Source: Hymenopellis radicata (lineage: Eukaryota > Basidiomycota > Agaricomycetes > Agaricales > Physalacriaceae). From it: a stretch of 64,000 bases of DNA. The position numbers and the translations under genes were made by a program. Of this stretch, positions 4,732 through 59,998 are shown piece after piece (positions within the stretch are counted from its first letter, which is position 1; every line of letters begins with the position of its first letter). A model generated the notes under the pieces. The model made no database searches and was not told the DNA's origin. It was given only the letters and a program-made list of their open reading frames with translations. The stretch spans positions 248,001 to 312,000 of the forward strand of contig JADNRX010000012.1 of the NCBI GenBank assembly GCA_015501595.1, read 5' to 3'.

Positions 4732-6650
4732 GCCGAAAGATTCAGTTGAGAGAGCCAAGTAGATCGCCAGTACACTTGAACGTCGCATCAGAGATTGTCA
4801 GAGTAAGAAATCGCCGTCAAAGAACCCGATCAAGAATGCCTGATCCAAGGGTGTGGCATCGAGAGTCATGCAAGAAGACTCTAGGCCGCCGTCAGGCATC
4901 AGCGTAGCCAAGAGGTCACCAATCAAGTAGTATAACATATACAGTAGCTCGCAGAATGATTTGGGTCCGCCTGAGGGTGCAAGAGTCAGCGATGACATTG
5001 TGAGCAAATGGAGTGATAATCACCTTTCACACATTCTTCCCCGCAACGACGCGACACTTCATTGAAGATGTACATCGTCTAACTTTTCAGAGCCCCCGGG
5101 GATCGGACTCGGAGGGATGAAGCACTCAACGATGTTACTCGGAGCATATTTGGTTGGCCTGGAAAAGATGTCAGTCAAAGGTCTAGGCAACGAGGAAGAC
5201 TCGACGTACAAGGCCAGTTTTCGTTCGGGCAACGACGAGGCACTTTATGAAAGATGCACATCGTCTAACATTTCAGGGCCCCGAGGGTCGGACTCGAAGG
5301 ATGAAGATCCTCGAAGAGGTTGAATGAGTAGATAATAGGAGTCGTTAGCACGGTCGTTGGTTGAGTAGTTGGCATAGCAGAGTAGCATAATATCGGTTTT
5401 CGAGTGTTGGTAGTAGCATAGTCGTAGTCGTTTCGGAGGATGCATGGCAGTCGTCTTGAGCCCGAGACAGCGGAGACATAGCAGCGCTCACGGCTTACGC
5501 CTCGGAGAACCAGGGACCCATGGCCACGGAGCACTCACATTGAGGCGCTCACGGATTACGCCACCGAACAACAACAGCGAGTCGACGAACGTTCGTACCC
5601 GATGAGGACGTGCCAGCCGTCCGACGACTGCACAGCGCCATTTCTGACCCGATTGGGTTGGCCTCTTGCTGCGAGTACTTGTTGGACAGCCTTTGCGTGC
5701 GTACATCGAGCAGTGAGAGGCACTCTGGCTGGAGAGAAGGCTGAATGGGTATGGTGTTTGTGGCCATAGAGGAGAAAGGGAACTGGACGACCGATGTTAG
5801 TAGGACAAAGGCAAGTCGTGCAGAGACTTACAAGAAAGAAAGAAAAAACATAGAAAGAAAAGTCTAGATCGCCATCAGTGACGTCAAGTAGCACATAGAA
5901 GAGAGGCGTACTTGATTGGGGACCCTCTTCAGCAAGGCTTCGACGATCTAAAGTGTGGCGCAGTTGTGCAGCCGATCGTGCGTGCAATGAATCGCGACCG
6001 TGGCGACGTTTTAGTCTTGCCAGGTCAGACAACGTCTGTATGACATGTCAGGTCGTTATGACCAGGGGGTGGATGAGTTGCGATCTACAAAGGCAAGGTC
6101 AACGAGGAGCCCTGCAACGAAGAAGCATAGGACAGTACCATTGCACGATAAAGCGACCGCAACGACGACGAGGCAAAGGTCCTCGACGTCTAAGGCTCAT
6201 GATGATGGTGGTCGTAGAAGAGAGAGCCAGATTGAAGGAAATTGGATTGAGGCTCCCTCTTTTATAGGCCAAACCGCCCGGCGCGCGCAAACAGTCCCCA
6301 ACAGCTTAGCCGTGCAGCCATCAGCGCATGATTGAGCGCTATTGTCCCAAAAGTCGGCGGAGATCAAGGGAGGATCGTCGCTTCTCGATTGTGCTTTCTG
6401 TGTCTCGAATGCGCGGTCGACACGTCTGTTCCACCGCTGGAGTGGTTTCCGGGTGCGCGCCAACTAAAGAATGCCACTTCAAGCACCGAAATCGACCTAG
6501 AAATGCGTGCAGTACGCGTAGCTGTCCATTCCACATTTGGGCGATTGTGGGTCCTCCTTCCCATGTGCATCCTCGCGTATCAGCAGATATGCAGGTCCGC
6601 GCGGCGCCTTGTTCTTGCAATGCTGTCCTTTTGTTCTTCCATCTTCTTCC
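4732..6650 (+). repeat. Dispersed repeat family R, copy A
   Basis: The same roughly 1.8-2 kb sequence recurs inverted at 33000-34760 (copy B) and direct at 39350-41310 (copy C). Shared landmarks in order are AAAGATTCAGTTGAGAG, TACACTTGAA, CTAACTTTTCAGAGCC, GGATGAAGCACTCAAC, TACGCCACCGAACAACAACA, TCAGGTCGTTATGACCAG, CCTCTTTTATAGGCC and GCGGCGCCTTGTTCTTG. The motif ending CATCGTCTAAC(T/A)TTTCAG with a following GGATGAAG block occurs twice inside each copy (near 5070 and 5260 here), so the unit has internal sub-repeats. No long open frame is conserved among the copies. It could be a solo LTR or a non-autonomous element. In copies A and B the similarity continues into the F-box gene promoter. I could not find ends with a target duplication. 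Confidence 0.7.
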
Positions 6651-7239
6651 ATTCTAAGAACAAGAATGAGGAATGGTTTTCATGAGAAGGTAGCGCTGAC
6701 TCCGGAAAATCACTGGACGTTCGAAGATCTGGATGGGTACTTCTGGCCTGGTCCGTTGGACGCGTCTGACGATTCGATCTACTCTATTGTCGTTCTCCTT
6801 TTGAGTATCTGGTAGATGCATTTTGGTCAGTAAATTTCCGCGAACATACGCGGCTGAGTTATGCAGGGAATACAGAGCTAGGCGCCGTGCGTCAGCAATA
6901 CAGTGGGAAAAACACACCGTACTCAAGGCGCCTCCACGCCAGTGTGCATGAAGGTTCTAGAGCCAGTCCTGGTGAGGCGTGCCGCGTCTCTCAGACCGTA
7001 AGAAACAAGATCAATTTCTTAGGTAATCAGCGCGATCGGGTTACCGATCGGGCGCGTTCGGCTGTGTTGTTTACTCTCATCTTCGTCCTCCTTGCCCTCG
7101 CCGTCGAAAGGCACTTCAAGTGAGAGCCAAGCGCTACTGCGATTCTCCCGAAAGACTTCCGTAATTTCACACTTCAAAGCACCGTATCTGTGGGTCTCCT
7201 CCCCAGCTTAGTGACAGCTCCTAACTTCATCCTTAGCTT

Positions 7240-8676
7240 ATGATCCATTTGCCGCAAGAAATATGCGACGACATCATCGACAAGGTCGCAGATGATAGAT
7301 TTCTTGCACCTAGTGCTGCTCTAGATCTGCTCCGTCAGAACCGTGATACCTTGCGTGCTTGTGCTCTAGTCTGTACACTCTGGACAGCAAGAGCACAGAA
7401 GGTTCTCTTTCGGAGTCTCGAAATCCGATTCGTCCTTCACAACAAGTCATTAACACGCCGCTTTGGATATGAAACGTCATTCTTCATCGACCCAGTCCGT
7501 TTTCCATTCTATAAGGGTCTCAGGAAACGCACACATTTGCTTTCGTACGTGAAGGATTTAAAAATCAGGTTCATACCTGGTTCTCGTGCTGATAAACGGC
7601 CGCTTTCGCTCTCATTCACCCGTCGCATTCGCTACTGGAAAAATGAACGAAGACTGTGCTATGTCCTCGACGTTATCAATAGTCTCCGGGCTGTTGAGCA
7701 ATTGGAAGTCGATGCACGTCACCTAGCACCCTATGTATTCCTGACACTTCTTACTAAGGACGTCTATTCAGCACTCTTGTCCGTCCTCCACCTTCCGTCG
7801 TTGACCACTTTCCGCCTCTTGGATGGCGTCGTAGTCAATCTCCTCGCGCTCCTTCGCGAATGTCCCCAGATCACACGTTTAGTCGTCGCGTGGATATAGC
7901 CTGGAAGGTGCTGATGTTGCTACCCTTGTCCCGCCGAAACTCAATTCATTGGTAGAGTTGGTTTGCAATGATAAGGATTTCCTTCGACATCTTGAGGCCC
8001 TCTCTCCCTCTCAACAAATGATCAAATATGGTTCCCTTCGGCGCCTTGACTTCGGTGACGCGCCTGCCACCAGGCAGGGCCCACATGAAGAATCCCGCTG
8101 GATAGCAGGCGTGCTGCGTCGTCTGGACGGGAAATTACTACAACATCTTTCACTTTGTGGTTACCCCATCGGTAATGCGAATAAAATCTTTTTGTGTTTT
8201 CCCAAGCTCATTTTGTGATAGAGCCACTCTGGCGTCTCTTCGACCTTTCAAGCCTCGTTTATGTTGAGTTAACAACATACTGGTACGACCAGTGGTGGAC
8301 GTGGTGGATCAACTGGCTCATACAGTCTTTCTCTGTTCCACCTGCATCGATCAAATCCAGGTTGCAACTTTCAAGGAGATGGCTTCTCCGATATGTCTTC
8401 GCACGTTGACGTTGGCATTCAACATGGGCGATTCCTGGAATAATACAGAACCTCCTCTCGCTGATGAATGGCGTCGGCTCGACGCGTCGTTATCAGCGTC
8501 CAAGTTCGATTGTTTGAGAAGCGTATCATTTGTAGATTCGGACTGCTGCCTCATGACTTATGGGAACATGAAGATGGTAGAAGATATACGCTCAGTATTC
8601 TCTCTCCTTTCACAGAAGGGTCTCTTGAATTCTAGCACGTTTGTTCAAAGACTGGTACCGAATATTTTGATACATT
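7240..8676 (+). pseudogene. F-box-like protein gene, copy A (frameshifted, chimeric 3' end)
   Basis: Starts MIHLPQEICDDIIDKV followed by the F-box-like TLRACALVCTLWTARAQ, almost the same as copies B (31221-32548) and C (37651-38960). F-box proteins act as substrate receptors of SCF ubiquitin ligases; these large fungal families evolve quickly. Compared with copy C, two bases are missing near 7897, which turns the frame into a stop after VVAWI, and one A is missing near 8350 in the second exon. The intron (from 8172 to about 8219) matches those of B and C. After the shared PPASIK segment the 3' end departs from B and C and instead resembles the end of the gene at 48956-50270 (LTLAF..., EPPLADEWRRLD, FDCLRSVSFV, DIRSVFSLLSQKG). 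Copy A is therefore both broken and chimeric. Confidence 0.75.
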
Positions 8677-24295: not shown

Positions 24296-25740
24296 AATGT
24301 AAGATAGACAGAAAATTGGCAGCGTAGCATTAGGTCAGACGCCTAATTGCGTTCAAGACCTCCCTCGAACTGTACACTTCTGGTCCTTCATGACAAAAGC
24401 GGCGCGAGGGCAGATCTTGCATTATTTGGTGCGCAACGTCGGATACCCCCGCGGCCTTACAGAGATTATGAATCTCGTCCTTTGTGAACCCGAACGCAGC
24501 AGCCATGGAAGGATGGTAGGTCATGTCAATAGCCAAAAGCTCCCACATGCCTTGAGCCTGGCGGTGATGAGGTTGTCGGTCTAGTTGAACGGGTTCGTCC
24601 CTGTCTGTCAACCCGGTACCCAAAATAATTCCATCGCTGATTCGTCCAACAAGAGGAGATATTAACATGACCTCGAGGGACATAAGAACGTCCCGGTCAC
24701 AACCAGAGTGCTTTGCAGGCGCGTCGTAATTGCAGACGCAAAGGTATATGCTCCAATCTCGAACCCGAGCAAGGCGCTGCAAAGAATCGGTGATCAACAG
24801 GTATATATCTCGTCAAAGCGAGGACTTACAGCAACAGCCCACAAATTAAGTTTTCCCGTCGCGTACAGATTTTCCGGGATCCCGTTCGCCATATCAATCC
24901 CCAGCTCTATGCAATACTTTTCGATGAAAGCAAACAGAATACGATCAATGTAGTCGGCTAAGGAGGATTTGAATGCAGCTGGCCCAGAGCTGGCAACGAC
25001 GGCATCGAGATCGAATCCCAGAAAGAGACACTCGGAAACTTCGCGGTCGAAGCCTCCATCATCCGCTCGTATAGCGGTCGGGCGGAAAAACCCCTCATAC
25101 CCTCTCCCCCCCTCGAAGTGCCAGTGATTGACGTCAACATACATTGAGAGCATGTCGACAAAGGCATGCTTGCCGAATCCGGAGGGTCTATCGAGGAGAG
25201 CAATAGTATTCTCGTGATAAGGAAAGGGGCGTTTGTACATGGCGATAATGAACTGGGATTTGTCGACCCATAGGCTTCCTTCGTCGGCGAGAAGATTGTG
25301 GAGGTTGTCCTGCGTCCGCAGAATGTGCTAAGTAAATGGTCAGGACATGCGTCGAATGTGCCGGCGTTGCACTCACCGATGAACCGGTCTCCCCATTCTT
25401 CAGGATGCCAGGTTCAGTCACAGAGAAATGGGCGGTTGCATCATTGGACCCCAGGGATCCCCGGCGGGATGTAGGGTCAGACGACGACGAGCTACTCGAC
25501 GGTGGAGAAGGGTCCAAGTATGACGAAATCTCATCAAGATCTTCTACATACGGTGCTTGAATAAGGTGCGCAATGTTAGAAGCAAGAAAACATACCATAG
25601 TCATAACCAAAGAAGTCTTCCTCGATGGTCGAGGCTTTGGGTTCAAGCTGTGGCTCCAGGATCGCGAGTTCATCACGCGTTAAGTCTTCGGACGACCTGG
25701 AATAAACCGAAATGGGATAGAGATCTGCCATTATGGAGGA
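24296..25740 (-). repeat. Direct duplicate unit D, copy 1 (with 29296-30735)
   Basis: Similarity to 29296-30735 starts at AATGTAAGATAGACAG just after the stop codon and ends within a few bases upstream of the start codon. It includes all three introns at identical places, so the duplication is at DNA level. The two copies flank the divergently transcribed nuclease gene. Confidence 0.8.
24330..25731 (-). CDS. AAA-ATPase-like (PF09820-type) protein without nuclease domain, copy 1 (419 aa)
   Basis: Exons 25596-25731, 25377-25555, 24830-25327 and 24330-24776. A poorly ordered Ser-rich N-terminal 100 residues is followed by the AAA-ATPase-like domain: LWVDKSQFIIAMYKR, the P-loop equivalent RPSGFGKHAF (152-161), CLFLGFDLDAV, the Walker B equivalent LCVCNYDAPAKHS (284-295), ISDGIILGTG, TYHPSMAAAFGFTKDEI and the terminal EVYSSREVLNAIRRL. 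In the canonical family the P-loop is RPRRFGKS/T and Walker B is LIDEYDKPI. Here the P-loop Ser/Thr is His and the two acidic residues before YD are Cys and Asn, so ATP hydrolysis is doubtful. The protein stops where the canonical family continues into a PD-(D/E)XK nuclease. It is divergent from the nuclease gene at 25921, with 189 bp between start codons. Function unknown; possibly a regulatory or decoy NTPase. Confidence 0.82.
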
Positions 25741-25920
25741 GGCGAGTGGCGAATGTGATGGTTGGAGGAAAGGAAAGTCGTGATGCCAGTGACTGTGACT
25801 CCTGAACAATAGTCGGTCATGTGACAGTGGGTCTTTTGCTCAATGACACCACGTGGTCCGCTTTGTTCGATGGCAGACTTAAACGCTTGACTCGTGGACA
25901 ATGGCTCTCTCTCTTTCACC
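25732..25920. promoter_or_regulatory. Shared promoter region of NTPase-like copy 1 and the header-nuclease gene
   Basis: Only 189 bp separate the two start codons, so both genes probably share control elements. A pyrimidine-rich CTCTCTCTCTTTCACC directly precedes the plus-strand ATG, a common transcript-start context in fungi. The region contains CACGTGG at 25850-25856 (E-box/CACGTG core). Confidence 0.45.
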
Positions 25921-26610
25921 ATGTCCACCCCCACCTCTTCGGACGTCGTCATCTACCTTCATCCTCTCCCGGAGTATGTTACCGGAGTCCAAAAACTCGT
26001 AGTCTCGAGTTCTGGACAGCCAGCGACCTTCTCGCATTTGGCTACGCTAGTTAACACAGTGCTCTCAAGGATGGAGAAACATTGCCTGGATTGGAATCTA
26101 GCCGACAGTCCTGTTATATATGGACGCTTAGAACGCCCCAACGGCGAAATCGATCAGGTTTTCCTCTCAGAGGATCGACACCTGCAGGAGTTTCTCACTC
26201 GACCGCTGAGAACACCCTCTATATCGTTTTGCAAGGAGCGAATGATATTACCGAATCCATTGTATCTCCCTTCTTCCATGTCTACTCCGACTCGTTTGCA
26301 AGTCTGCCTATACCTTCATCATCTCCCAGATCACGCTCTCGGAGTCTCCAAAGTAGTAGTCTCACCCTTCGAACTGCCAGTGACCTTCTTGCACTTGGCC
26401 ACACTTCTTCTCGCAAAGCTCTCAACAGTCAAGAAACGCATCAGTTGGAATCTAGCGGACAGTCCTCATATATATGGACACTCAGAACGCCCCAATGTCG
26501 AAATTGGGAAGATCTCCCTGCTGAATGATCAAGACCTGCAGGCGTTTCTCAGTCGGCCGTTGGAAACACACCGTATATCTTTTTGCAAATTGCCACCGAC
26601 TCCTTCGGTA
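25921..26610 (+). repeat. Internal tandem duplication encoding two header domains
   Basis: Two adjoining units (25921-26279 and 26280-26610) each begin with ATGTC(C/T)AC and encode similar segments of about 110-119 residues: LVVSSSGQPATFSHLATL / VVVSPFELPVTFLHLATL, WNLADSPVIYG / WNLADSPHIYG, ERPNGEI / ERPNVEI and LQEFLTRPL / LQAFLSRPL. The DNA duplication lies wholly within exon 1 and keeps the frame. Confidence 0.85.
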
Positions 26611-29209
26611 TGAGTGTTTTCCAGCTCCATAACTGTCTACTAACTTGAACGTTCACTAGTCCCCGTTGGAAGCACCTTCTTCCTCAACTGCCCAAGCAAC
26701 CACTTCTGGTACTGCGGCTGGTCCTGCCTCTGTCAATGCTCCGTTGAGTGTTTCTAAGCCTCTCGCCCGCAAACGGGGTTTGAGCAAGAGCGATGAAGAT
26801 GTGGCGAATCATAAACGTGGTTCACAGTCCGTACGCGTTCGACGGGAAGGGAAAGTTGGAGAATTTTGAGTGTCGGACATCCGGATGATGCTGACTGGGG
26901 GCAGAAATCGGTCGGTATTTCTTTATTTTACTCTATACCTGCTAACAGATATATGTTCGCGTCTAGATGAGACTCAAGGTGGACTTCACACAAGATAACT
27001 TCATGGTTCCCTCACGCACTCTTGTCGTCGATCGTTCCTCGTTCGTGCAAGCCATAGAGAATCCTGATTTACGCAAAGCATCTGAGGATCGAATGGTGAT
27101 CACCCATTTCGATGTCGACTCCTTGGATCACGTGTCAGGCTTGACCTCGATATTTAACAATATCAATGGAGCCAAACGACATGACGAGACCTTCGGAGAA
27201 ATGTTAATCAGCAAAATACCAGATATACTGCACTCTCAGTATCTCATTCTCGAGATGAATTTAGCTCCACTGGCATCGCATTTGACACAACCTTCTGACT
27301 TACTGCAGAGGTTGTCAGCCCTTGTTGTCGCAACCTTGGCCGGCTTCTGCATGAACTATGAATCTCGGTTGCCCTTCACTTGGGAATCGATATACAGGCC
27401 AGACCGCCCTCTTTATGACGTTATTAGAGATTTCATGGTCAGTACTATATACTTCCTTGAATCTGTGCGGTTATTTACGCCTATATTAGACTGCCTTCGA
27501 TCGCTGTAATGCCCTAGACGAGATTCTGTTGATTCTCAAGCGTTACGATCATCCCATCAATGCCGCCTTCCTCAACTCCCGCTGCAACCAGACCGTTTTC
27601 AACGAGCATGCAGTCATTGAACTGCTATGCACTTACTTCTTTGACCCCATTTCGAGGGCAAAAGACGCCGGCATCATCAAGCGGATCATCTGCTTCGGGC
27701 GGTCTAATGCGGCACGTTTGGCCTTGGCGAGCCGGTTCAGGTTGTACGATGTGACATCCCATCCAAGCATCTCTCGCTTGATGTATGCAACAGAAACTGA
27801 ACTACGCGAAAGTATGAAGTTCCTATATGCCGATATTCCGCCGGAGCTTCTCGCCACACGAGCGAACGAGGCAGAGCTCTGGATCGCTGGACAATCCGAT
27901 CGCTCAGGACGCGAACCTACAGGGGCGCACTATGTTGAATGGGGCTTGATGTACAAGATCCTCAGCCGTGTTTTCCACCAGAGACAGGAGCCTGAACGGT
28001 CACTTATCGATACGGTGGATAATCTTCCCCATGACTGCTTTACATTCCTGGAGCTGCAACTTTTTGGCATCGCCATAGCTCAGACCCCTCACGAGTTTCT
28101 CCTAGAGAGGCTACCACCACTGATTGAGCCTGTTTTTGAGGACCGAACTGAAGTATGGGATTGTCCATGCCCAAACGTACTGTTCCGGTACACCGATGTA
28201 CTGGCGCTTCCCGCGTCCAACAATGTCGTGGTGACGCGATTAAATCTTTCTCCGCTGGACAGCCAGGTTGCGATCTTCAAATTGTTTTACGAGGCTGGGC
28301 TATTAACACTGGCCATGAATGACTTGGACCAGACAACCTCGAACGACGTTTACCTCCGTCTTCCTAATCTTCGTGCCAAGAATTTGGTGCGTATACAATC
28401 TCTGAACTTTGAATCAACCAGTCCTCATTATCTGTCAGGTCATGTCCATCGTAGAAACATATGCTCGCTACGACTATACCACGCAGGGTTACGCGGGTAC
28501 CGAATGGCTGAAATCTAGCGTGCTAAATTTTATGCGCGACCGTGATGTCCGGGTATTAAAAACGTTCAAAGAGGCAACACTGCAAAACACCGTCGTCGCC
28601 ATGCTCTCTATGGGCGGGGCAGCGGTTGGCCGCATTCCACGCGAAGCAGTCCTCGACGAGCTGCGACTTTACGACAAGAGGTACATTGATCGTTTCTGCG
28701 ATCTCTTCTTACCTACACTCCGCGTCGTCATCGAGCTCAAGAATATCAACATTCTTGACTTATTCAAAGGCATCTACGGTCGCCTTCCCACGAACGATGA
28801 CGAACTCGATCTATTTCTCAACAAATATCTCTTCGAGGTGGATATCCCCTCGGACGCCGATTTCGATGACGATTCGAAGGCAGTAATTGCCCCGGCGGGA
28901 TTTAAGAAATTCGGCGATAGCCTAACGTGGGCAGACCTCTGGTACGAGATCAAAAAAGAGGATGGAACCACTGTATTTCAGTCTGTCGACACTTGTTTTC
29001 GCCTTGGCATCGGCCAGCTCAGAGGTTATCAAGGTAACATCGCCGTAGGTCGCTTTCCCGTGTGGCGGCGAAGTAAAATCACTACGATAAAGGCCCCCAC
29101 ACAAATGCTCAAAGCGACCCTTCTCATGCTCCTAGCCGGTCGTCTCGTTGTCACCAAGGACTTGGAAGACATACCGACCGATTACGAGTTTAGAGTCGAG
29201 CCGAAGTAA
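25921..29209 (+). CDS. Header-pseudoNTPase-PD-(D/E)XK nuclease protein (about 998 aa)
   Basis: Exons 25921-26607, 26660-26830 (3' border uncertain), 26967-27437, 27490-28386 and 28439-29209. Residues 1-229 hold two tandem header domains that look ubiquitin-like; 230-286 is a Ser/Ala linker. From 287 an AAA-ATPase-like domain can be traced: VDRSSFVQAI (cf. VDKT), a P-loop-equivalent THFDVDSLDH with no GK, DEILLILKRYDHPIN (cf. LIDEYDKPIN), IIKRIICFG, YDVTSHPSISRLMYATETEL, then FYEAGLLTL and YLRLPNLRAKNLV, the standard connector to the nuclease. The C-terminal nuclease keeps D826 (YIDRF), E841-x-K843 (VVIELKN) and QLRGYQ. This order matches fungal crinkler-like or DUF1703-type effectors. The NTPase lacks Walker residues while the nuclease keeps its catalytic set. 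The 26831-26966 junction either is a 136-nt intron or hides a frameshift. Confidence 0.72.
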
Positions 29210-29295
29210 ACAGTTTGCGCGCTGCACACATGAATTGTATATCATTTGTTTTTATGTTTTGACTCCTACAATTTCAATGTATTCAATGGACACGA

Positions 29296-30735
29296 ATGTA
29301 AGATAGACAGAAGATTGAATGGCAGCGTAGCATTACGTCAGACGCCTGATTGCGTTCAAGACCTCCCTCGAACTGTACACTTCTGGTCCATCGCGACAGA
29401 AGCGGCGTGGCCGTAGGTCGTGCGCTATCTTCTCTGTAACGCCTGGTGTACCCGCAGCCGTACAGAGATGTTTGATCTCGTCCTTTGTGAATCCAAACGT
29501 AGCAGCCATGGAAGGATGATACGTCATATCGATGGCCAAATGCTCCCATATGCCTTGAGCCTGACGGTAATGAGGCTCTCGGTCCAGTCGAACGGACTGG
29601 CATTCATCTGCCATGCCAGTGCCCAGAATCAATCCATCGCTGATTCGTCCCAGAAGCCGAGATACTAACATGAAGTCGAGGGCTTCAAGAACTTCTGGGT
29701 CACAACCAGAGTGCTTTGCAGGCGCGTCGTAATTGCAGATGCAAAGGTATATGCTCCATCCCCGAGCCCCAATGAGGTTCTGTATGGCAAGGGAATTTAG
29801 TAGGTAAATATGTCCAATGAAGGAAGACATACAGCAACAGACAAGAAGTCTAGTTTTCCGGTCTCGTATAGGGTTTCCGGGATCCCATTCGCCATATCAA
29901 TCCCCAGCTCTATGCAATACTTCGTAATGAAGGCAAGCAGGATACGGTCAATGTAGTCGGCTAAGGAAGATTTGAATATAGCTGGCCCAGAACTGGCAAC
30001 GACGGCATCGAGATCGAATCCCAGAAGGAGACAGTTGTGAACTTCATTGTCAAAGCCTCCATCATCTGCTCGTATAGCAGTTGGACGAAAAAAACCATCA
30101 TACCCTCTTCCTCCCTCGAAGTGCCAGTGATTGACGTCAACATACATTGAGAGCATGTCGACAAAGGCATGCTTGCCAAATCCGGAGGGTCGGTTGAGGA
30201 GAGGAATGGTGCGTTGGTGATAAGGGCAAGGGCGCTTGTACATAGCGATGATGTACTGGGTTTTGTCGACCCATAACGCTCCATCATTGGTGAGAATATT
30301 GTAGAGGTTATCTTGAGTCCGCGGAATGAGCTCAGAGGACATGCGTCGAATGTGCCGGCGTTGCACTCACCGATGGGCCGGTCACCCCATTCTTCAAGAT
30401 GCCAGGTTCAGTCACAGAGAAATGGACGGTTGCATCATTGGGCCGGCGGGATCTAGGGTCAGACGACGACGAGCTACTCGACCTCGTCGACGCCGGTGAG
30501 AAAGGGTCCAAGAGATCTTCTAAATACGGTGCTTAAAGAAGGTGCGCGATGTTAGAAGCAAGACAACATACCATAGTCATACCCAAAGAAGTCGTCCTCG
30601 ATGGTCGACGCTTTGGGTTCAAGCTGTGCCTCCGGGATTGAGATTTCATCACGCGTTAAGTCTTCGTACGACTTGGAATAGACTGAAATGGGATAGAGAT
30701 CTGCCATTGTGGAGGAGGCGGGTGGCGAATGTGGA
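29296..30735 (-). repeat. Direct duplicate unit D, copy 2
   Basis: Second copy of 24296-25740 in the same orientation. Similarity breaks off just upstream of the start codon at 30707, so the divergent partner gene and shared promoter present at copy 1 are absent here. Confidence 0.8.
29333..30707 (-). CDS. AAA-ATPase-like (PF09820-type) protein without nuclease domain, copy 2 (413 aa)
   Basis: Exons 30572-30707, 30371-30531, 29833-30330 and 29333-29779, with the same intron positions and exon 3 and 4 lengths as copy 1. The domain markers are conserved: LWVDKTQYIIAMYKR, RPSGFGKHAF, LLLGFDLDAV, LCICNYDAPAKHS, ISDGLILGTG, TYHPSMAATFGFTKDEI, EVYSSREVLNAIRRL. The altered P-loop (His after GK) and Walker B (CNYD in place of DEYD) are identical in both copies, so the change predates the duplication and has been kept in intact frames. 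The second intron is 40 nt and uses an acceptor ending CTCTGAG, one of the weakest in the window. Its promoter differs from that of copy 1. Likely expressed but function unknown. Confidence 0.78.
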
Positions 30736-31220: not shown

Positions 31221-32548
31221 TCACGAGTCTAGAAGAGGTTCGTATTTCAATTTACCGTTTTTCTTCATCTCCGGAAACGCATCAATCATGTTTTCTGGAC
31301 GCCATGTCTTCAAGATGACCCTTTGCAGTTCAGGCCACGAGGCCAGAGCTTTATCGAAAACATTCCATTGCAGTACCTGTGGTTGCCAATCAACGTCCGC
31401 AGCACCAAATTGTATGAACGACAGCGTAAGTTGCTGAATTTTAATTGACGCCGAAGGGATAGAGAAAGACTGTATGAGCCAGTCGATCCACCATGCCCAC
31501 GACTCGTCGTACCAGTGTGTCGTCAACTCAAGGTAGACGAGATTCGAAAGGTCGAAGAGGCGCCAGAGCGGCTCTGTCGTGGAATGAGTTTGAGAACTCA
31601 CAAGATGAGTTACAGCATACCGATGGGGTAAATACAAAGCGAAAGATGTTGTAGTAATTTCCCGTCCAGGCGACGCAGCACGCCTGCCATCCACCGAGAG
31701 TCCTCATCCGGCCCCTGGCTAGTAACACACGCCTGACCAAAGTGAAGGCACCGGAGGGAGCCATAATTAATCATTTGCTGAGAGGGAAAGATGGTTTCGA
31801 GATGTCGAAGGAAATCCTTGTCGTTGCAAACCAATTCTACCAATGAATCGAGTTTCGGTGGGACAAGGGTAGCGACGTCAGGACCTTCCAGACCGTATAT
31901 CCAACCGACGACCAGCCGCGTGATCTGGGGACATTCGCGAAGGAGCGCGAGGAGATCTGCAAGAACGCCATCCGAAAAGCGGAAAGTGGTTACAGACGGC
32001 AGGTGGAGAACGGATAACAGTGCCGAATGCACATCCCTAGAAAGTAGTGGCATGAATAAATAGGGTGCTAGGTGACCTGCATCGACTTCCAGTTGCTCAA
32101 CAGCCCGGAGACTATTGATAACGTCGAGGACATAGCGCAGTCTTCGTTCATTTTTCCAGTAGCGAATGCGACGGGTGAATGAGAGCGAAAGCGGCCGTTT
32201 ATCAGCACGAGAACCAGGTATGAACTTGATTTTTAAATCCTTCACGTACGAAAGCAAATGTGTGTGTTTCCTGAGACCCTTATAGAATGGAAAACGGAAT
32301 GGGTCGACGAAGAAGGACGTGTCAAGTCCAAAGGGACGTGTGAGCGACTTGTTGTGAAGAACGAATCGGATTTGGAGAGCCCGAAAGAGAACCTTCTGTG
32401 CTCTTGCTGTCCAGAGTGTACAGACTAGAGCACAAGAGCGCAAGGTGTCACGGCTCTGACGGAGCGGAGCGGCGCTGGGTGCAATAAGTCCATCATCTGC
32501 GACCTTGTCGATAATGTCGTCGCATATTTCTTGCGGTAAATGGATCAT
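31221..32548 (-). CDS. F-box-like protein, copy B (426 aa, intact)
   Basis: Exons 31621-32548 and 31221-31573; intron 31574-31620 lies at the same codon (PI|EPLWRLFDL) as in copies A and C. N-terminal F-box-like region: MIHLPQEICDDIIDKV followed by TLRSCALVCTLWTARAQKVLF. The body has a loose leucine-rich pattern (VEQLEV, LLSVLHLPSVTTFRF, LLRECPQITRLVVGW, LLQHLSLC, LVYLELTTHWYD, FDKALASWPELQRVILK), as expected of a substrate-binding LRR-like domain. By family it would recruit substrates to an SCF ubiquitin ligase; the targets are unknown. Unlike copy A it has no frameshift. It is inverted relative to A and C and carries repeat copy B upstream. Confidence 0.82.
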
Positions 32549-32999
32549 GGGCTAAGGGTGAAGTTATAGTGTACATGCTGTAAGCTGGGAGGAGACCCAC
32601 AGATACAGACGGCTACGGTGCTTTGAATCGCCCAATTATGGGAGTCTTTGGGGGAAAGTCGCACTGGTGCTTGGCTCTCACTTGAAGTGCCTTTCGACGG
32701 CGAGTGCAAGGAGGAGGAAGATGAGAGTAACTTCAACAGTAAGCAACACAGCACGACCTTCGGCAAACGCATCCCGATCGCGCCGATTACCTAAGGAATT
32801 GATCTTGTCTCTTCCCTCATCGAGGCCTCATCTGTGAGAGGCTCATCACGGTCTGAGAGACGCGGCACGCCTCACCAGGACTTGCTCTAGAGCCTTCATG
32901 CACACTGGTGCGGAGGCGCCATGAGGTATCTCGAATCGGAAGACGCGTCCAACGGAACGGGTCAGAGGTGCGCCTCCAGATCTCTGAACGTCCATTTCC

Positions 33000-37162: not shown

Positions 37163-37650
37163 TTCCTTTTGGACCACTGCACTCTCGTTATCTTGCTTTA
37201 CTTATTTTACATACCTCGTCTCTAGTTTAACGGACATTTGGTAGTAAGTACATATCGCATTGGGACCAAGCTTGCAACTATGAAAAGTTCCTGCTATGTG
37301 AAGGCTGGTTCGTTTAGAAGCGTGCTTTCATGTCCTCACACTGACAGTCGTCAAAACGTGATAAGGCTGACAAGTTAAAGCATTTTACAGCCGCCGGGTG
37401 GCGCGAGTAAGATCAATTCCTTACGTAATCGGCGCGATCGGGACGCTTTTGCCGAAGGTCGTGCTGAGTTGCTTACTTTCATCTTCTTCCTCCTTGCACT
37501 CGCCGTCGAAAGGTACTTCAAGTGAGAGCCAAGCGCTACTGCGGTTCTCCCCAAAGACTCCCGTAATTTCGTGATTCAAAGCAATCTGTCTGTATCTGTG
37601 GGTCTCCTCCCAGCTTACAGCATGCACATTACTGACTTCACCCTTAGCTT
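37163..37650. other. Promoter region of F-box copy C
   Basis: From about 37400 the sequence matches the region upstream of copies A and B (GCGCGATCGGG, CTTCAAGTGAGAGCCAAGC, GTGGGTCTCCTCC landmarks). The F-box promoter was therefore duplicated with the gene even though repeat R is not upstream here. Confidence 0.6.
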
Positions 37651-38960
37651 ATGATTCATTTACCGCAAGAAATATGCGACGACATCATCGACAAGGTCGC
37701 ATATGATGGACTTGTCACACCCAACGCCTCTCTGCTCCGTCAGAACCGTGCCACATTGCGCGCCTGTGCTCTAGTCTGTACACTCTGGACAGCAAGAGCA
37801 CAAAGGGTTCTCTTTCGGACTCTGGAAATCATATTTGTTCTTCACAACAAGTCGTTCGAAAGCCCTTTTGGACATGACATGTTATTCTTCATCGACCCAG
37901 TCCGTTTTCCATTCTATAAGGGTGTCAGGAAACGCACACATTTGCTTTCGTACGTGAAGGATTTAAAAATCAAGTTCTCTCCTGGCCTTCATCATCCTGA
38001 TCAGCAGCCGCTTTCGCTCCCATTCACCCGTCACATTCGCTACTGGAAAAATGAGCGAAGGCTGCGCTATGTCCTCGACGTTATCAAAAGTCTCCGGGCT
38101 GTTGAACAACTGGAAATAGCACCCTGTGTATTCATGCCACTTCTTACTAAGGATGTTCATTCAGCACTGTTGTCCGTCCTCCACCTTGCATCGTTAACCA
38201 CTTTCCGCTTCCCAAATGGCGTCGTAGAAGATCTCTTCGCGCACCTTCGCGAATGTCCCCAAATCACGTGTTTAGTCGTTGGGTGGATATACGGTCTGGA
38301 CGGTGCTGATGTCGCTACCCTCGTCCCACCGACGCTCGATTCCTTGGCAGAGCTGGTTTGCAACAAGGATTTCCTTCGACATCTTGAGACCCTCTTTCCC
38401 TCTCAACAAATGATCAAATATGGGTCCCTTCTGCGCCTTCACTTCGGTGACGCGCCTGCCACCAGACAGGGCCCACATGAAGAATCCCACTGGATAGCAG
38501 GCGTGCTGCGTCGCGTGGACGGGAAATTACTGCAGCATCTTTCGCTTTGTGTTTACCCCATCGGTAATGCGAATAGTCTTTTTTTGTGTGTTCCCAAGCT
38601 CATTTCGCGATAGAGCCACTCTGGCGTCTCTTCGACCTTTCGAGCCTCGTTTATATTGAGTTAACAACATGCTGGTACGACCAGACCTGGACGTGGTGGA
38701 TCAACTGGCTTATACAGTCTTTCTCTGTTCCACCTGCGTCGATCAAAATCCAGGAACTCAAGTTGTCGTCCACGCAGTCCGCTTCTGTGGCGGTGAATCG
38801 TTTGCAACCGTTACCGCAGTGGAAGGTATTCGACAAGTCTCTGGCCTCGTGGCCTGATCTGCGAAGGGTCATCTTGAAGTTATGGCCGCCATGCCCACGA
38901 CATGCCGTGATTGAAGCTTTTCCAGAGTTGGAGAGAAACAGTAAACTGATGCTTGTCTGA
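37651..38960 (+). CDS. F-box-like protein, copy C (419 aa, intact)
   Basis: Exons 37651-38563 and 38614-38960. It opens with MIHLPQEICDDIIDKV and TLRACALVCTLWTARAQRVLF and keeps the same LRR-like body as copy B, ending ...FDKSLASWPDLRRVILK and FPELERNSKLMLV. Residues between the F-box and the LRR are one to several codons shorter than in A (no DARHLAPY segment). The frame is intact, and the gene sits in direct orientation to A. Repeat copy C lies downstream and not upstream, so the arrangement differs from A and B. Predicted role as for copy B. Confidence 0.82.
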
Positions 38961-54756: not shown

Positions 54757-57700
54757 TTACGCATATTCATAATCGTTCCGAATGGCATTGCTCATCCACT
54801 CTTCGTCAACCTCTTGCAGCGGGAACCCAGGCCCTCCAGCGACGCTGAGTATAACCGGCAGTAAGACCAGTCCATGTAACGCCCCCGAAATAATGAGGGT
54901 CAGCCACATTCGGAAGTAATAGATCTAGAAAGCCACTTGAGCTCAAACTCGATCCTTGAGACGAGACTGGCAGAAACTTACCTCGAGAAGGCGCGAACGA
55001 GTGAGTGCCAAAACACACATCCCAATCAACTTGGTGAACGTGATGCCCGACAGCACTGACGGTCCAACGTCGACGAGCGCCGTCCACATCCGTTCATCCC
55101 GCTCCTTCTGCCCAGCCGGATGATCAACCGCCAACCCCGAACCCGCACTCATAAACGCCCGAGCGACGTGAGCGCAGAACTCCACGGCTATTCCGAGAGA
55201 GATAACCAAGTTGACCAAACTCAGAGCGTTCAAACTGATGCCCCAGAGAGCCATGACTCCCATGACAGTGACTACTGTCAGTCCAACAACGCCAGTAACA
55301 ATAGTTCCTGTTCGCCAGGATCCCAAGAGTATGGCTGTGATCAGCAAGACCGTGGCGAGACCGAGGCCCAACACCATTTGAGTTGTAGCCGTGATGTACG
55401 CATACTGTTCGAAGAACACGTAGTGTATGGCGTACGGGAAGACTCGAGCTCCAGTCAGCTCCGAGATGTCATTCGCGATTCTATCGGCAGCTTGGTATGA
55501 TGCAATGAAGTCCGCTTGAGACTTCAGCGGTTTATGATAAGTTCGGAAGTGCGACGCGATGACTTCATTCTCGCCCAACGCAAGAGCTGTTCCAAATGAC
55601 GCCTTACCGGCCTGCGGACAGTCTTCGTTTGTTGGTGAGATCAACCATTGTCGAAGGTATTGCATAAATTCCTCTCCTTCAGGAAGACCTGCCATCGTGA
55701 TGTTCCATGCAGGCTCTCGATCCTCATAACATGGGCGACACTGCCTGGAATTTTGTCGAGGAGTGCAGAAGACAGATGGATCTCGCTTCAGCACCCGACA
55801 GCACTGCTCTTTGGCAGGATCCAGCCACCCCAAAAAGTCATCGATCCAGGACGCACTGGGTTCCGATATGTAGGAAGTGTCGGGACGTTTTCGTTCGGCT
55901 TCCAAAACGTTCGCTATAGATAGCTGGTCGCAAGTTGTAAACCGTCCACAAAGAGCTTGTTGTCCATCACGTTTGGTCACGTTGATATCTGTGGAAACGA
56001 AGTAGACCGGGGGTCCAACATCAAAGTATGCGTCTAGTTTGTCGAAGTATGACACCAGGTAGGAGTCGGAGGGTAACGCCAACCGTTGATCTAAGATTCT
56101 CTGAATAAGTTGTACGGAGTTTCAAAGTGCGGGGTTCTTACCTAGACCAAGCTCCAAGTGTTGGATCGATATTACCGAGGCGACGAACACGCCGGAGAAA
56201 ACGAGTACGACAACCCCTTTGACAATGGGCTGTAATAAGAACGGGGCATAATGTCTTCGTATGAATTTGGCGATACGTCCGAGACCGCTACCACCCCCTT
56301 CAAGTAACGCAATACGAACCGGGAGTCTGACGCATGGGAAGCAGTCGATCCGATTCGCCTAGTAACGACATTAGTACTCACGGACTATGGCAGTCGACTG
56401 GACATTACCTCTGCTCGCCTCAAGTCCAAAGCCAAGGCACTGACGAACACTGTCACCTGGAGTATGGCGTTCAACAGCACACTCCCGGCCGCGTACAAGG
56501 CAAAATTTCTGACTGCCGGCATGGGTACGAGCGCGCCGAGCGCAAACGCGACCGTCTCTGTGACAGAGCTCAGCAAAATCGACGGGCCCATTTTTGCCAC
56601 TGTCCTGGCAACGCGTTCCTCCGCGCTCAAGAACAGTGGAACAGACGCAGCATCCACGTCATCGTGCGAAGAGTCGAACTGGGAGAAATGTCCCCCACGG
56701 GGTTCTACAGGCGACGTGGCACCTCCACCTAACAGCGCGGCGTTGGGCCCATGAAGGAGATTCTGCCTGTCCAGTTCATGAACAAGGATGAAGACATTGT
56801 CCACGCCAACAGCCAAGATCAGGAAGGGTATCACTTCCGCGATGATGAGCGTGACCTTCACGCCCATAAAGGAAAATAATCCAACAGAAGACGACACCGA
56901 TAATATCACCAAGAAGATACCGAACAATGCTAGCGAGACCTTGCTTTCAATGAACAAATTACGGGGCAGTCTAGGGAACCACCGCGGAGTCATCCTCGAG
57001 TCGATAGACAGAGCACCCGATGCACCCTTCTTGAATAGCCCAGGGAAATTGCGCGCCCACGTCAAAAGCGAACGGAAGAATCCATCTTCGTCAGTGCGCG
57101 TTCCACCGCCCAATGTCAAAGAGACATAGAAGAACATTGCGAGATAGGACAAGACCACAATCGTCACGTCCGTGTTCGTGCTCTTGTTGATCTCTTCCTC
57201 CAATGAAACACCCGTAGAAAAGCTGATGCGAAGACCAATTTCTCCCTCGATACGTTCGGAGAGATCGAGAAGATAGGCGCGCAGCGACTCCTCCCATTCC
57301 TCGGCACCTGGAAGATGGGAAACAACGAAGGTAACAACCAAGGCCACAGCTTTAGTGTATTGCTTGTGGTCATCATCGTCTAGCGGCACCCCACCCAGGA
57401 CGTACTGAGGCTGCAACGGTTGCTGGAAATCCGGAAGACATTCTACAGGATACGTGGCGCACTCCTTGAGGTGTTCTGCCCATGTTTCCGAAGTGTATCC
57501 GTCTAAACTGTTACCAAACCAGCCGCCAATTGACTGAACAACACATGCACCCTCCTCGCCCCCAGGCTTGAAACAGACATCATCCAATGTGTACCCATTG
57601 GTAGATGTCAGAGAGCGTATATCCTTCTCAACATCGAACCAGTACTTGAGACGGTCCCAAGACAAGACAGCTCCTTCCTCTGGAGTAGTCACGAATATCT

Positions 57701-58972
57701 GCTCAGTGCGATAAAATGGTCCGAAATGTTGGTCGAAAAACTCCTTGTTCTGTTTCGTGGCAGAAGTAGGGGAGACCCATAAGCGCACCGGGTCAGTCTC
57801 GATTTCAAAGTTCCTCCACCCGATATTGAGCACACCGACGAGTATAAAGATGACACAGAACATGAGCCATGGGCTCGACGCGCTCCAGTAACCTAGGCGA
57901 TAGAACATGCGCCGCAAGACGTTGTTCAATTTATATTGACGCGGCTGAGCGGTCTCCACCGGATCGAGTAACGTTGCACCGCGCCCGAGCTCATCCTCCG
58001 TGCTCATACTATGCCCATTCTCGCTCTCTAGGTATTGCGAGAGTGACCCGGCACCGACCAAACCGCGTGTATGTGATCTGGGGGAAAGCGAAGCGGTCTC
58101 CGCGCTCAACGCGACTCGCTCGTAGCGTCCCTCTCGTCGCTTGCGTATGGTCCTGCCTATCGCAACGCCACCTATAAAGGCACCCACTGCCAGACACCAG
58201 ACGAGGATGAGAGCAAATGATAGGCACGTCACCGCACCGACATTACATGTCGCCGGTTCAGCCACCTCTGGGAGAGTGAGACAAATGTCGGGGCAGTCAA
58301 TGCATGTGCATTTGCTTCCGAGGTCGTTGTCGGCGCAGTTGCGGGGAGGGGGGTCTAGTCGGCTGATGTCCTCCGGAGTGCCATTGCTCTCCGGCGGGAC
58401 GTTTATTTGGAATGGACTGCCAATTGGTTTCTCGTCGCCAAGGTACTTGAGAAAGGCGGGTGCAGTCTTGGCGCCACCTCCGATGAGGTCCATGGCGAAA
58501 CCGTTGGTCGCCCCCATCTGCACGCTCTTGCACGAGTCGAAGAACCCTGCGCGAACTGGTCGCCAACGAAAGAAGTCGACGGACGCCACGGCGGTGCCCG
58601 AGTCCGTCTGCTGCGTAGAGGTGACGTTGAGAAAATCATGTTGGTTCGGGGAGCAGGTGAATTTGCAGAAAAGGATTTGAAGTTGTTGAGACAGGCCGGA
58701 CAGGATGAGACCAAGCCCTGTTATTTGGGCAAAGTTGGACTGGAGAGTCTCCAGCTGCGCGGACGTGCAGCACGTCGGCCCACTGGCAAATTCTGCGCCG
58801 CATATTGAAGTCAGTAAATCACGGTTGTCAGGCTGTACGACTGTCAGTCGATGGGGTGAGCCGAGAAAGGGTGACGCACTTGGACTGCTGGTCCGTCGTA
58901 GGGGCACGGTAAATCTCTGCCAAAAAGACCTTTCTTCCCGCATGTATCGCGCATAGAGCAGCGCCCAGCCAT
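54757..58972 (-). CDS. NCR1: NPC1-type sterol transporter (Ncr1-like), 1336 aa
   Basis: Exons 58880-58972, 56409-58832, 56142-56358, 54982-56090 and 54757-54924, in frame. The N-terminal Cys-rich sterol-binding domain starts AGRCSMRDTCGKKGLFGRD and continues through CPYDGPAVQ, CCTSAQLETLQ and CKFTCSPNQHDF. Then come the first membrane helix (VTCLSFALILVWCLAVGAF), a lumenal loop, the sterol-sensing domain (from SLALFGIFLVILSVSSSVG through VIPFLILAVGVDNVFILVHE and TETVAFALGALVPMPAVRNF), the Cys-rich second loop (CCRVLKRDPSVFC, CRPCYEDREP) and the terminal RND helices (LNALSLVNLVISLGIAVEF). It moves sterol out of the vacuole or lysosome with NPC2. No signal peptide is encoded before AGRCSM in this reading, although the N-terminal domain must enter the lumen. 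The segment near 58545-58577 reads FRWRPVRAG where the family would favour the neighbouring frame. Confidence 0.95.
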
Positions 58973-59092
58973 GGCGGGCAGGTATATATGGGTATCCGGT
59001 CAGGCCAGTTGAGTGTCGGTAGCAGAATGCAGTCAGACGCGTTCACGCGTATGTAAAGCCCACGTGGGAAGTTCAGCGCTTGTCATCCCACA
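58973..59092. promoter_or_regulatory. 120-bp divergent promoter between NPC1-like and sirtuin genes
   Basis: Contains TATATA at 58983-58988 (very close to the NPC1-like ATG) and CACGTG at 59061-59066, a palindromic E-box core used by bHLH regulators including sterol-responsive ones in fungi. Both genes must be driven from this short region. Confidence 0.45.
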
Positions 59093-59998
59093 ATGAGCTC
59101 AGACGTAGCCCAGTTCCAAAAGGTACTCAAATCCTCCAAAAACATCATTGTCGTCGCTGGCGCGGGCTTGTCAGCCGCATCAGGAATACCCACATTCAGA
59201 GGTGCTGGTGGACTATGGAGGAAACATAAAGCCATGAAACTCGCCACCCCAGAGGCCTTCCATGCCAATCCCTCTCTGGTCTGGCAATTCTACCATTACC
59301 GCCGCGAATCGGCTCTCAAAGCCCAGCCAAACGCAGCACATAAAGTCATTGCTCAATTCTCTGTTCCATCCGTTCGTAACGCCATCGTACCCGACTCAAC
59401 ATTCACCTTGATAACCCAAAACGTTGACGGTCTCAGTCAAGTAGCACTCGACGAGGTGATGCTCAAGTATCCCGACGAGGCTACACCTGCTCCGAATGAG
59501 CAGCCCAGAATGCTTGAAATGCACGGGCGCATATTCGACGTATTGTGTGCGTCGGGAATATGTGATCATATCGAATTCAACAAGGCGTCTCCCATCTGTG
59601 AGGCTCTAAAAGGCACAGAGGAGTTGATCGACAAACAGAGCATGGACGCCACTATTGCGCTCTCTTCTCTTCCCCACTGTACACAGTGTGGCGAGCTGAG
59701 TCGACCAGGAGTTGTCTGGTTCGGAGAGGAGCCCCTGTATCTCGAAACGATTGACAAGTTGGTTGACAAGGCGGATTTGTGCTTGGTGGTTGGCACTTCT
59801 TCGACTGTAAGACAAAACTGAAGTAGACTCGTTTAGCACTAACGATGGTTCTAGGTGTATCCTGCAGCAGGCTATGCATATACGGTATCGGAAAACGGTG
59901 GTGCAGTCGCGGTCTTCAACTTGGAAGGTGATGACGATGCCGACTTTCTCTTCCTTGGCCCATGCGAAGAGACGCTTCCCAGAGCATTAGGGTTGTAG
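59093..59998 (+). CDS. SIRT5-like NAD-dependent protein deacylase (285 aa)
   Basis: Exons 59093-59806 and 59855-59998. NAD-binding and catalytic motifs are complete: [35 protein letters not shown] (catalytic His), [15 protein letters not shown] and FNLEG near the end. The YHYRRE motif (Y-x-x-R within FYHYRRE) is the class III signature that makes SIRT5 prefer succinyl, malonyl and glutaryl lysines. The zinc site has CTQCG as its second pair, while the first pair is spread as CASGIC, which is unusual. There is no clear mitochondrial presequence, so location is open. It shares a short promoter with the NPC1-like gene. Confidence 0.93.

Follow-up and report, generated by a model that had tools for sequence, protein, structure and literature searches.

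Divergent NTPase and nuclease-like genes recur as a pair in the genome of Hymenopellis radicata

A three-gene locus with two NTPases and one nuclease-like gene

Hymenopellis radicata is an edible, saprotrophic agaric of the family Physalacriaceae. We analyzed a 64,000-nt window of its 75.5-Mb genome assembly, forming part of contig C224; coordinates given without a contig refer to this window. The locus of interest comprises two minus-strand genes encoding nucleoside triphosphatase (NTPase)-only proteins, NTPase A and NTPase B, and between them a plus-strand gene (hereafter the nuclease gene) encoding a header, a basic linker, an NTPase-like domain without P-loop (pseudoNTPase) and a nuclease-like domain. 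NTPase A is divergent and NTPase B convergent relative to the nuclease gene. A divergent pair of an NTPase-only protein and a protein with this header/linker/pseudoNTPase/nuclease-like architecture is repeated genome-wide. In the window, the start codons of NTPase A (25731, minus) and the nuclease gene (25921, plus) are separated by 189 bp (25732-25920), a candidate two-way promoter.

The nuclease gene (25921-29209, plus strand; P0001) corresponds to the GenBank entry BDZ89DRAFT_1058584, a hypothetical protein of 1017 amino acids, with exons at 25921-26607, 26660 to about 26910, 26967-27437, 27490-28386 and 28439-29209 based on frame reading and the GenBank model. As a previous reading of the sequence alone (hereafter the sequence-only reading) had proposed, the first exon contains a duplicated header: two tandem copies (about 25921-26240 and 26278-26607), each beginning with MSTPT and showing 69% and 71% DNA identity in cross-matches between a window copy and the opposite copy on the second haplotype. 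The linker exon (26660-26910) encodes, by reading, a bipartite basic stretch (KR...KR). In the window copy its frame is broken, and the public gene model apparently bridges the break with a very short intron. For the pseudoNTPase domain (27006-27900), the AAA-ATPase-like assignment of the sequence-only reading held in part: homology to the NTPase-only proteins was found by hhalign (93.6%, E 2e-7, 261 columns, in one comparison), whereas the PF09820 match (20.9 bits, E 3.4e-4) stayed under the curated cut-off of 26.1 bits and covered profile positions 51-191 only. Since this match starts at position 51, the P-loop part is missing from it. Neither the header nor the C-terminal domain gave a match to any Pfam family.

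The window protein has no hydrophobic N-terminus by reading. In the relative L038 (frame 5792-7471), a start at an in-frame Met that precedes the header would add a hydrophobic, signal-peptide-like N-terminus, while in L034 and L045, also relatives, the corresponding stretch is out of frame with any Met. Given the L038 start, a secreted effector is possible for some members of the family, which may thus leave the cell.

The C-terminal domain (28439-29209, plus strand) shows the motif layout of PD-(D/E)XK nucleases, as had been suggested, with D at 28700-28702, E-x-K at 28733-28741 and Q-x3-Y at 29015-29029. In an alignment of seven such domains from this genome, the only invariant columns were E, E, K and P; E-x-K is present in all seven, Q-x3-Y in each of the six rows extending that far, and the motif Asp is aligned in four (window, L025, L032, L040) and unaligned in L034, L039 and L038. 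An AlphaFold model of the domain reached a pLDDT of 72.6, and a second-look structural comparison with VIA-align returned nucleases as the top matches at middling Z; a second model, made for the nuclease domain of the C929 pair, was not usable (pLDDT 32.8). Searching the PDB by sequence gave no convincing match. The proposed nuclease family PF08011 could not be recovered: neither the C-terminal piece nor P0001 has a Pfam match to it, and a PF08011 profile search of the H. radicata genome found none, although the control genomes gave no match either.

NTPase A (24330-25731, minus strand, 419 amino acids; exons 25731-25596, 25555-25377, 25327-24830 and 24776-24330) and NTPase B (29333-30707, minus strand, 413 amino acids; exons 30707-30572, 30531-30371, 30330-29833 and 29779-29333) were confirmed as same-strand duplicates, both open four-exon genes with introns at matching places. 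Their proteins share 322 of 409 aligned residues (79%), with an NG86 nonsynonymous divergence (dN) of 0.12 and synonymous divergence (dS) of 0.39, and both exceed the PF09820 cut-off (34.6 and 38.3 bits). The duplicated DNA is limited to 24301-25757 and 29300-30733, that is, to the 1.45-kb NTPase gene alone, and the flanks showed no remnant of a second nuclease. We therefore rejected the idea that a 5-kb unit had been duplicated with subsequent loss of one nuclease.

Neither NTPase A nor NTPase B has a complete P-loop plus Walker B acid. The P-loop region of NTPase A (RPSGFGKHAF; 25161-25193 by ruler reading, minus strand) retains Lys and carries His for the usual Ser/Thr, and its Walker B-like stretch (YLCVCNYDAPA; 24717-24751, minus strand) has Cys for the usual Asp and Asn for the usual Glu. 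The only NTPase relative found outside H. radicata among the best-scored candidates from a database of 5.8 billion sequences, P0004 of Mucidula mucida (71%), shows the same P-loop His and Walker B Cys. Across the catalogued NTPase-only paralogues, G-F-G-K-S/T is retained in 17 of 19 stretches. The Walker B position is occupied by Asp in 14, Glu in two and Gly in one of 17 catalogued stretches, and all 17 carry Asn for the second acid, in a catalogue whose search pattern admitted Asn, Glu or Asp at that position. Judging from these residues, the window NTPases may bind nucleotides without hydrolyzing them.

Contig C1060 represents a second haplotype of 24301-49997, matching it at 96-98% identity over the main aligned pieces; both nuclei are thus partly represented in the assembly. 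It carries the same three-gene layout, and rearranged stretches were seen around 31-42 kb of the window. On this haplotig, the four exons of NTPase A are gap-free, although some 160 bp in the region of exon 1 and intron 1 occur twice, and NTPase B has one gap. Its copy of the nuclease gene is broken at places other than the window copy; the breaks in either copy may reflect assembly error or real decay.

Further neighbours in the window include inverted gene copies at 31296-32564 and 37635-38891 (also 7237-7896), whose protein starts with MIHLPQEICDDIIDKVA. We take this family to be of the F-box type by its look; the tested piece of the protein had no Pfam match. A Niemann-Pick C1 type gene and an adjacent Sir2 gene (54946-59818) belong to the ordinary neighbours.

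Divergent pairing across the genome

At E values up to 1e-3, the genome contains 26 PF09820 places, and we inspected the surroundings of all of them (the window, C1060 and 19 neighbourhoods of 8-10 kb). A relative of the nuclease gene adjoins 12 of the 26, corresponding to seven loci when haplotypes are counted once: window (two), C1060 (two), C929:120 kb, C1307:150 and 152 kb, C840, C637:25 kb, C347:50 kb, C347:129 kb and C807. For the other 14, searching the 3-6 kb upstream with the profile and for reading frames of at least 115 amino acids revealed no nuclease. The nuclease profile was built from five partner genes that were later re-found; independent matches are L028, L032 and L039, of which L028 (on C637, E 6.9e-6) represents the weakest pair. 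At every paired locus, the nuclease gene starts next to an NTPase gene that runs in the divergent direction. The two start codons, chosen by reading, are 189-426 bp apart at seven loci (189 bp in the window, 210-426 bp at six others; L034 and L039 are haplotypes of one locus, and L038 and L040 were left out).

Approached from the other side, a genome search with pieces of the nuclease gene recovered 15 nuclease genes (E up to 1e-3), of which nine had been identified from the NTPase side. A divergent NTPase lies at the start of 14 of the 15, so that the pairing described by the sequence-only reading is systematic within this genome, and the separation of NTPase-only proteins from the header-pseudoNTPase-nuclease protein is likewise supported. 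The 15th gene, on C212, is cut by the contig end 2.6 kb upstream of the nuclease match. The six genes new from this search lie on C347 (27 kb and 107 kb), C594, C1015, C484 and C212. Found without looking near NTPases, all five testable ones are paired with a divergent NTPase, which was read on the predicted upstream side for both new C347 genes (the one at 107 kb has stops inside the matched pieces) and was recognized by positions alone on C594 (two NTPases), C1015 and C484. As a rough yardstick, 24 stretches of 10 kb make up about 0.3% of the genome. C1015 and C484 resemble two haplotypes of one locus. Matches above the threshold were not counted, namely C526 (E 0.02), C929:57754 (0.003), C1 (0.32) and C1382 (0.34). 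On C526, the weak nuclease-like match at 57982 (plus) and a weak PF09820 match at 77510 (minus) are about 19 kb apart and perhaps form a broken or distant pair. Two NTPases per nuclease gene occur at the window, C1307 and C594. Overall, the relationship is asymmetric: no testable nuclease lacks an NTPase, yet NTPases often stand alone.

The two partners also diverge together. For seven pairs, haplotype duplicates excluded, the distance matrices of NTPases and nucleases were correlated with r 0.957 (1 of 5040 permutations); reducing the two close couples to one pair each gave r 0.63 (5 of 120 permutations). C929 and C1307 form a close couple: identity amounts to 77% in the pseudoNTPase piece and 87% in the nuclease piece but to only 38% in the header, where DNA similarity ends, which marks the header as the fast-changing part of the protein. 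Such turnover would fit the expectation for a recognition module. The comparison between close pairs is that of L025 (header exon 5958-6630) with L032, in which the header is much more diverged than the remaining gene.

Proposed control of the nuclease and alternative explanations

We propose that the locus belongs to a family of two-protein nuclease systems in which the NTPase subunit assembles with the nuclease and controls it, most likely by restraint, a reading to which we give about even chances. A single ancestral NTPase would have given rise both to the NTPase-only protein and to the NTPase-like half of its nuclease partner, and these two parts would continue to associate inside the nucleus, the shared upstream region keeping both products balanced. 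The NTPase subunit would then most likely keep the nuclease switched off as long as the header has not encountered its target, which might be invading DNA, a second nucleus or a different organism. Restraint is preferred because every testable nuclease comes with an NTPase, whereas NTPases on their own are common; this is the pattern expected of an obligate partner or an antidote. Licensing of the nuclease by the NTPase fits the asymmetry almost as well. Conservation between the haplotypes of the nuclease-domain piece 28439-28860, with 11 synonymous and one nonsynonymous codon differences, also speaks for the proposal, as do the pairing seen from both sides, the homology of the two NTPase domains, the correlated distances and the invariant E-x-K.

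Several observations weigh against it. A Foldseek search with the C-terminal model retrieved no nuclease with a significant score (best E 2.3). In the window nuclease gene, the copies of both haplotypes contain frame breaks, suggesting that this particular nuclease may be decaying. The pseudoNTPase exon shows 10 synonymous against 19 nonsynonymous codon differences between haplotypes, indicating weak constraint, and the three exon pieces of the nuclease gene together show 24 of each kind. Constraint is also weak on NTPase A (15 synonymous and 23 nonsynonymous differences in 419 codons) and NTPase B (14 and 28). Finally, block-copied genes stay linked without working together, and several of the pairs are duplicates or haplotypes of one locus.

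This last point leads to ordinary gene-family clustering, in which pairs are copied together and remain adjacent without functional upkeep. Duplication is indeed common here, as seen for NTPase A and B and the C929 clusters, but the divergent order is retained in 14 of 14 testable pairs despite nuclease domains down to 17% identical to that of the window, and the NTPases without a nuclease indicate that linkage can be lost; we consider this explanation unlikely. A two-gene mobile element or its remnant, resembling a transposon NTPase with a restriction-type nuclease copied around the genome, appears more improbable still. The review PMC5289972 links prokaryotic genes combining NTPase and restriction endonuclease (REase) domains with transposable elements, and several copies are clustered on C347 and C929. 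However, the ends of the window cassette lack inverted repeats beyond chance-level matches of 8-13 bp, the cassette is present in both haplotypes, the duplicated stretch contains nothing but the NTPase gene, and deep pairs are only 14-32% identical.

The asymmetry that supports restraint could also be produced by a strict toxin/antidote system, in which the nuclease would be lethal or damaging and the NTPase would serve as its dedicated antidote, with orphan NTPases as surplus antidotes, as in the Wolbachia CinA-CinB nuclease pair. We regard this as possible, if doubtful. Another reading, which we hold to be quite improbable, is that the divergent pairs act as a guard against nuclei that are foreign or in rivalry: in each pair, the matching NTPase would license or neutralize a nuclear nuclease whose fast-changing header serves recognition, and pairs and orphan NTPases together would form a poison/antidote repertoire acting between nuclei, mates or invading DNA.

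Relationship to known NTPase-nuclease families

Crinkler-kind NTPase-nuclease proteins have been reported from many eukaryotes, and to our knowledge it is open how their NTPase part controls the nuclease. The natural split in H. radicata, where one gene encodes an NTPase and the other a nuclease fused to a dead NTPase, makes such control testable, and the many divergent pairs supply both matched and mismatched partners for this purpose. Among the papers listed by literature searches, none treats such divergent pairs in mushrooms, judging by title or abstract start. For the nuclease protein, no relatives in other species were found among the best 7998 and 7995 candidates in searches requiring shared 5-residue words; this absence is weak evidence, because the word-based searches also left H. 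radicata's own distant partners unlisted.

Membership in the crinkler-type effectors, as put forward by the sequence-only reading, fails for the models tested (PF20147 and PF08011). The crinkler header PF20147 matched none of the header pieces and was not found genome-wide, with control genomes giving no match either. By analogy, the split system would work like a crinkler-type NTPase-nuclease divided in two, its class membership failing at the sole header model tested, though a looser membership may hold given the diversity described for CR headers.

In prokaryotes, PF09820 and PF08011 domains are usually fused. The NTPase-only proteins of H. radicata resemble the prokaryotic proteins in that they belong to PF09820 by the curated cut-off, but here NTPase and nuclease are encoded by two genes and the nuclease is unmatched by PF08011. 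A parallel in domain order is provided by the CR (Crinkler-RHS-type) proteins, for which the review PMC5289972 describes a header, an NTPase-like and a REase-like domain, headers that are diverse, and an occurrence that includes non-pathogenic organisms. The H. radicata nuclease gene has this same order of header, NTPase-like and REase-like domains; in contrast to the CR proteins, its fused NTPase domain lacks the P-loop, and an additional NTPase is encoded by a separate, divergent gene.
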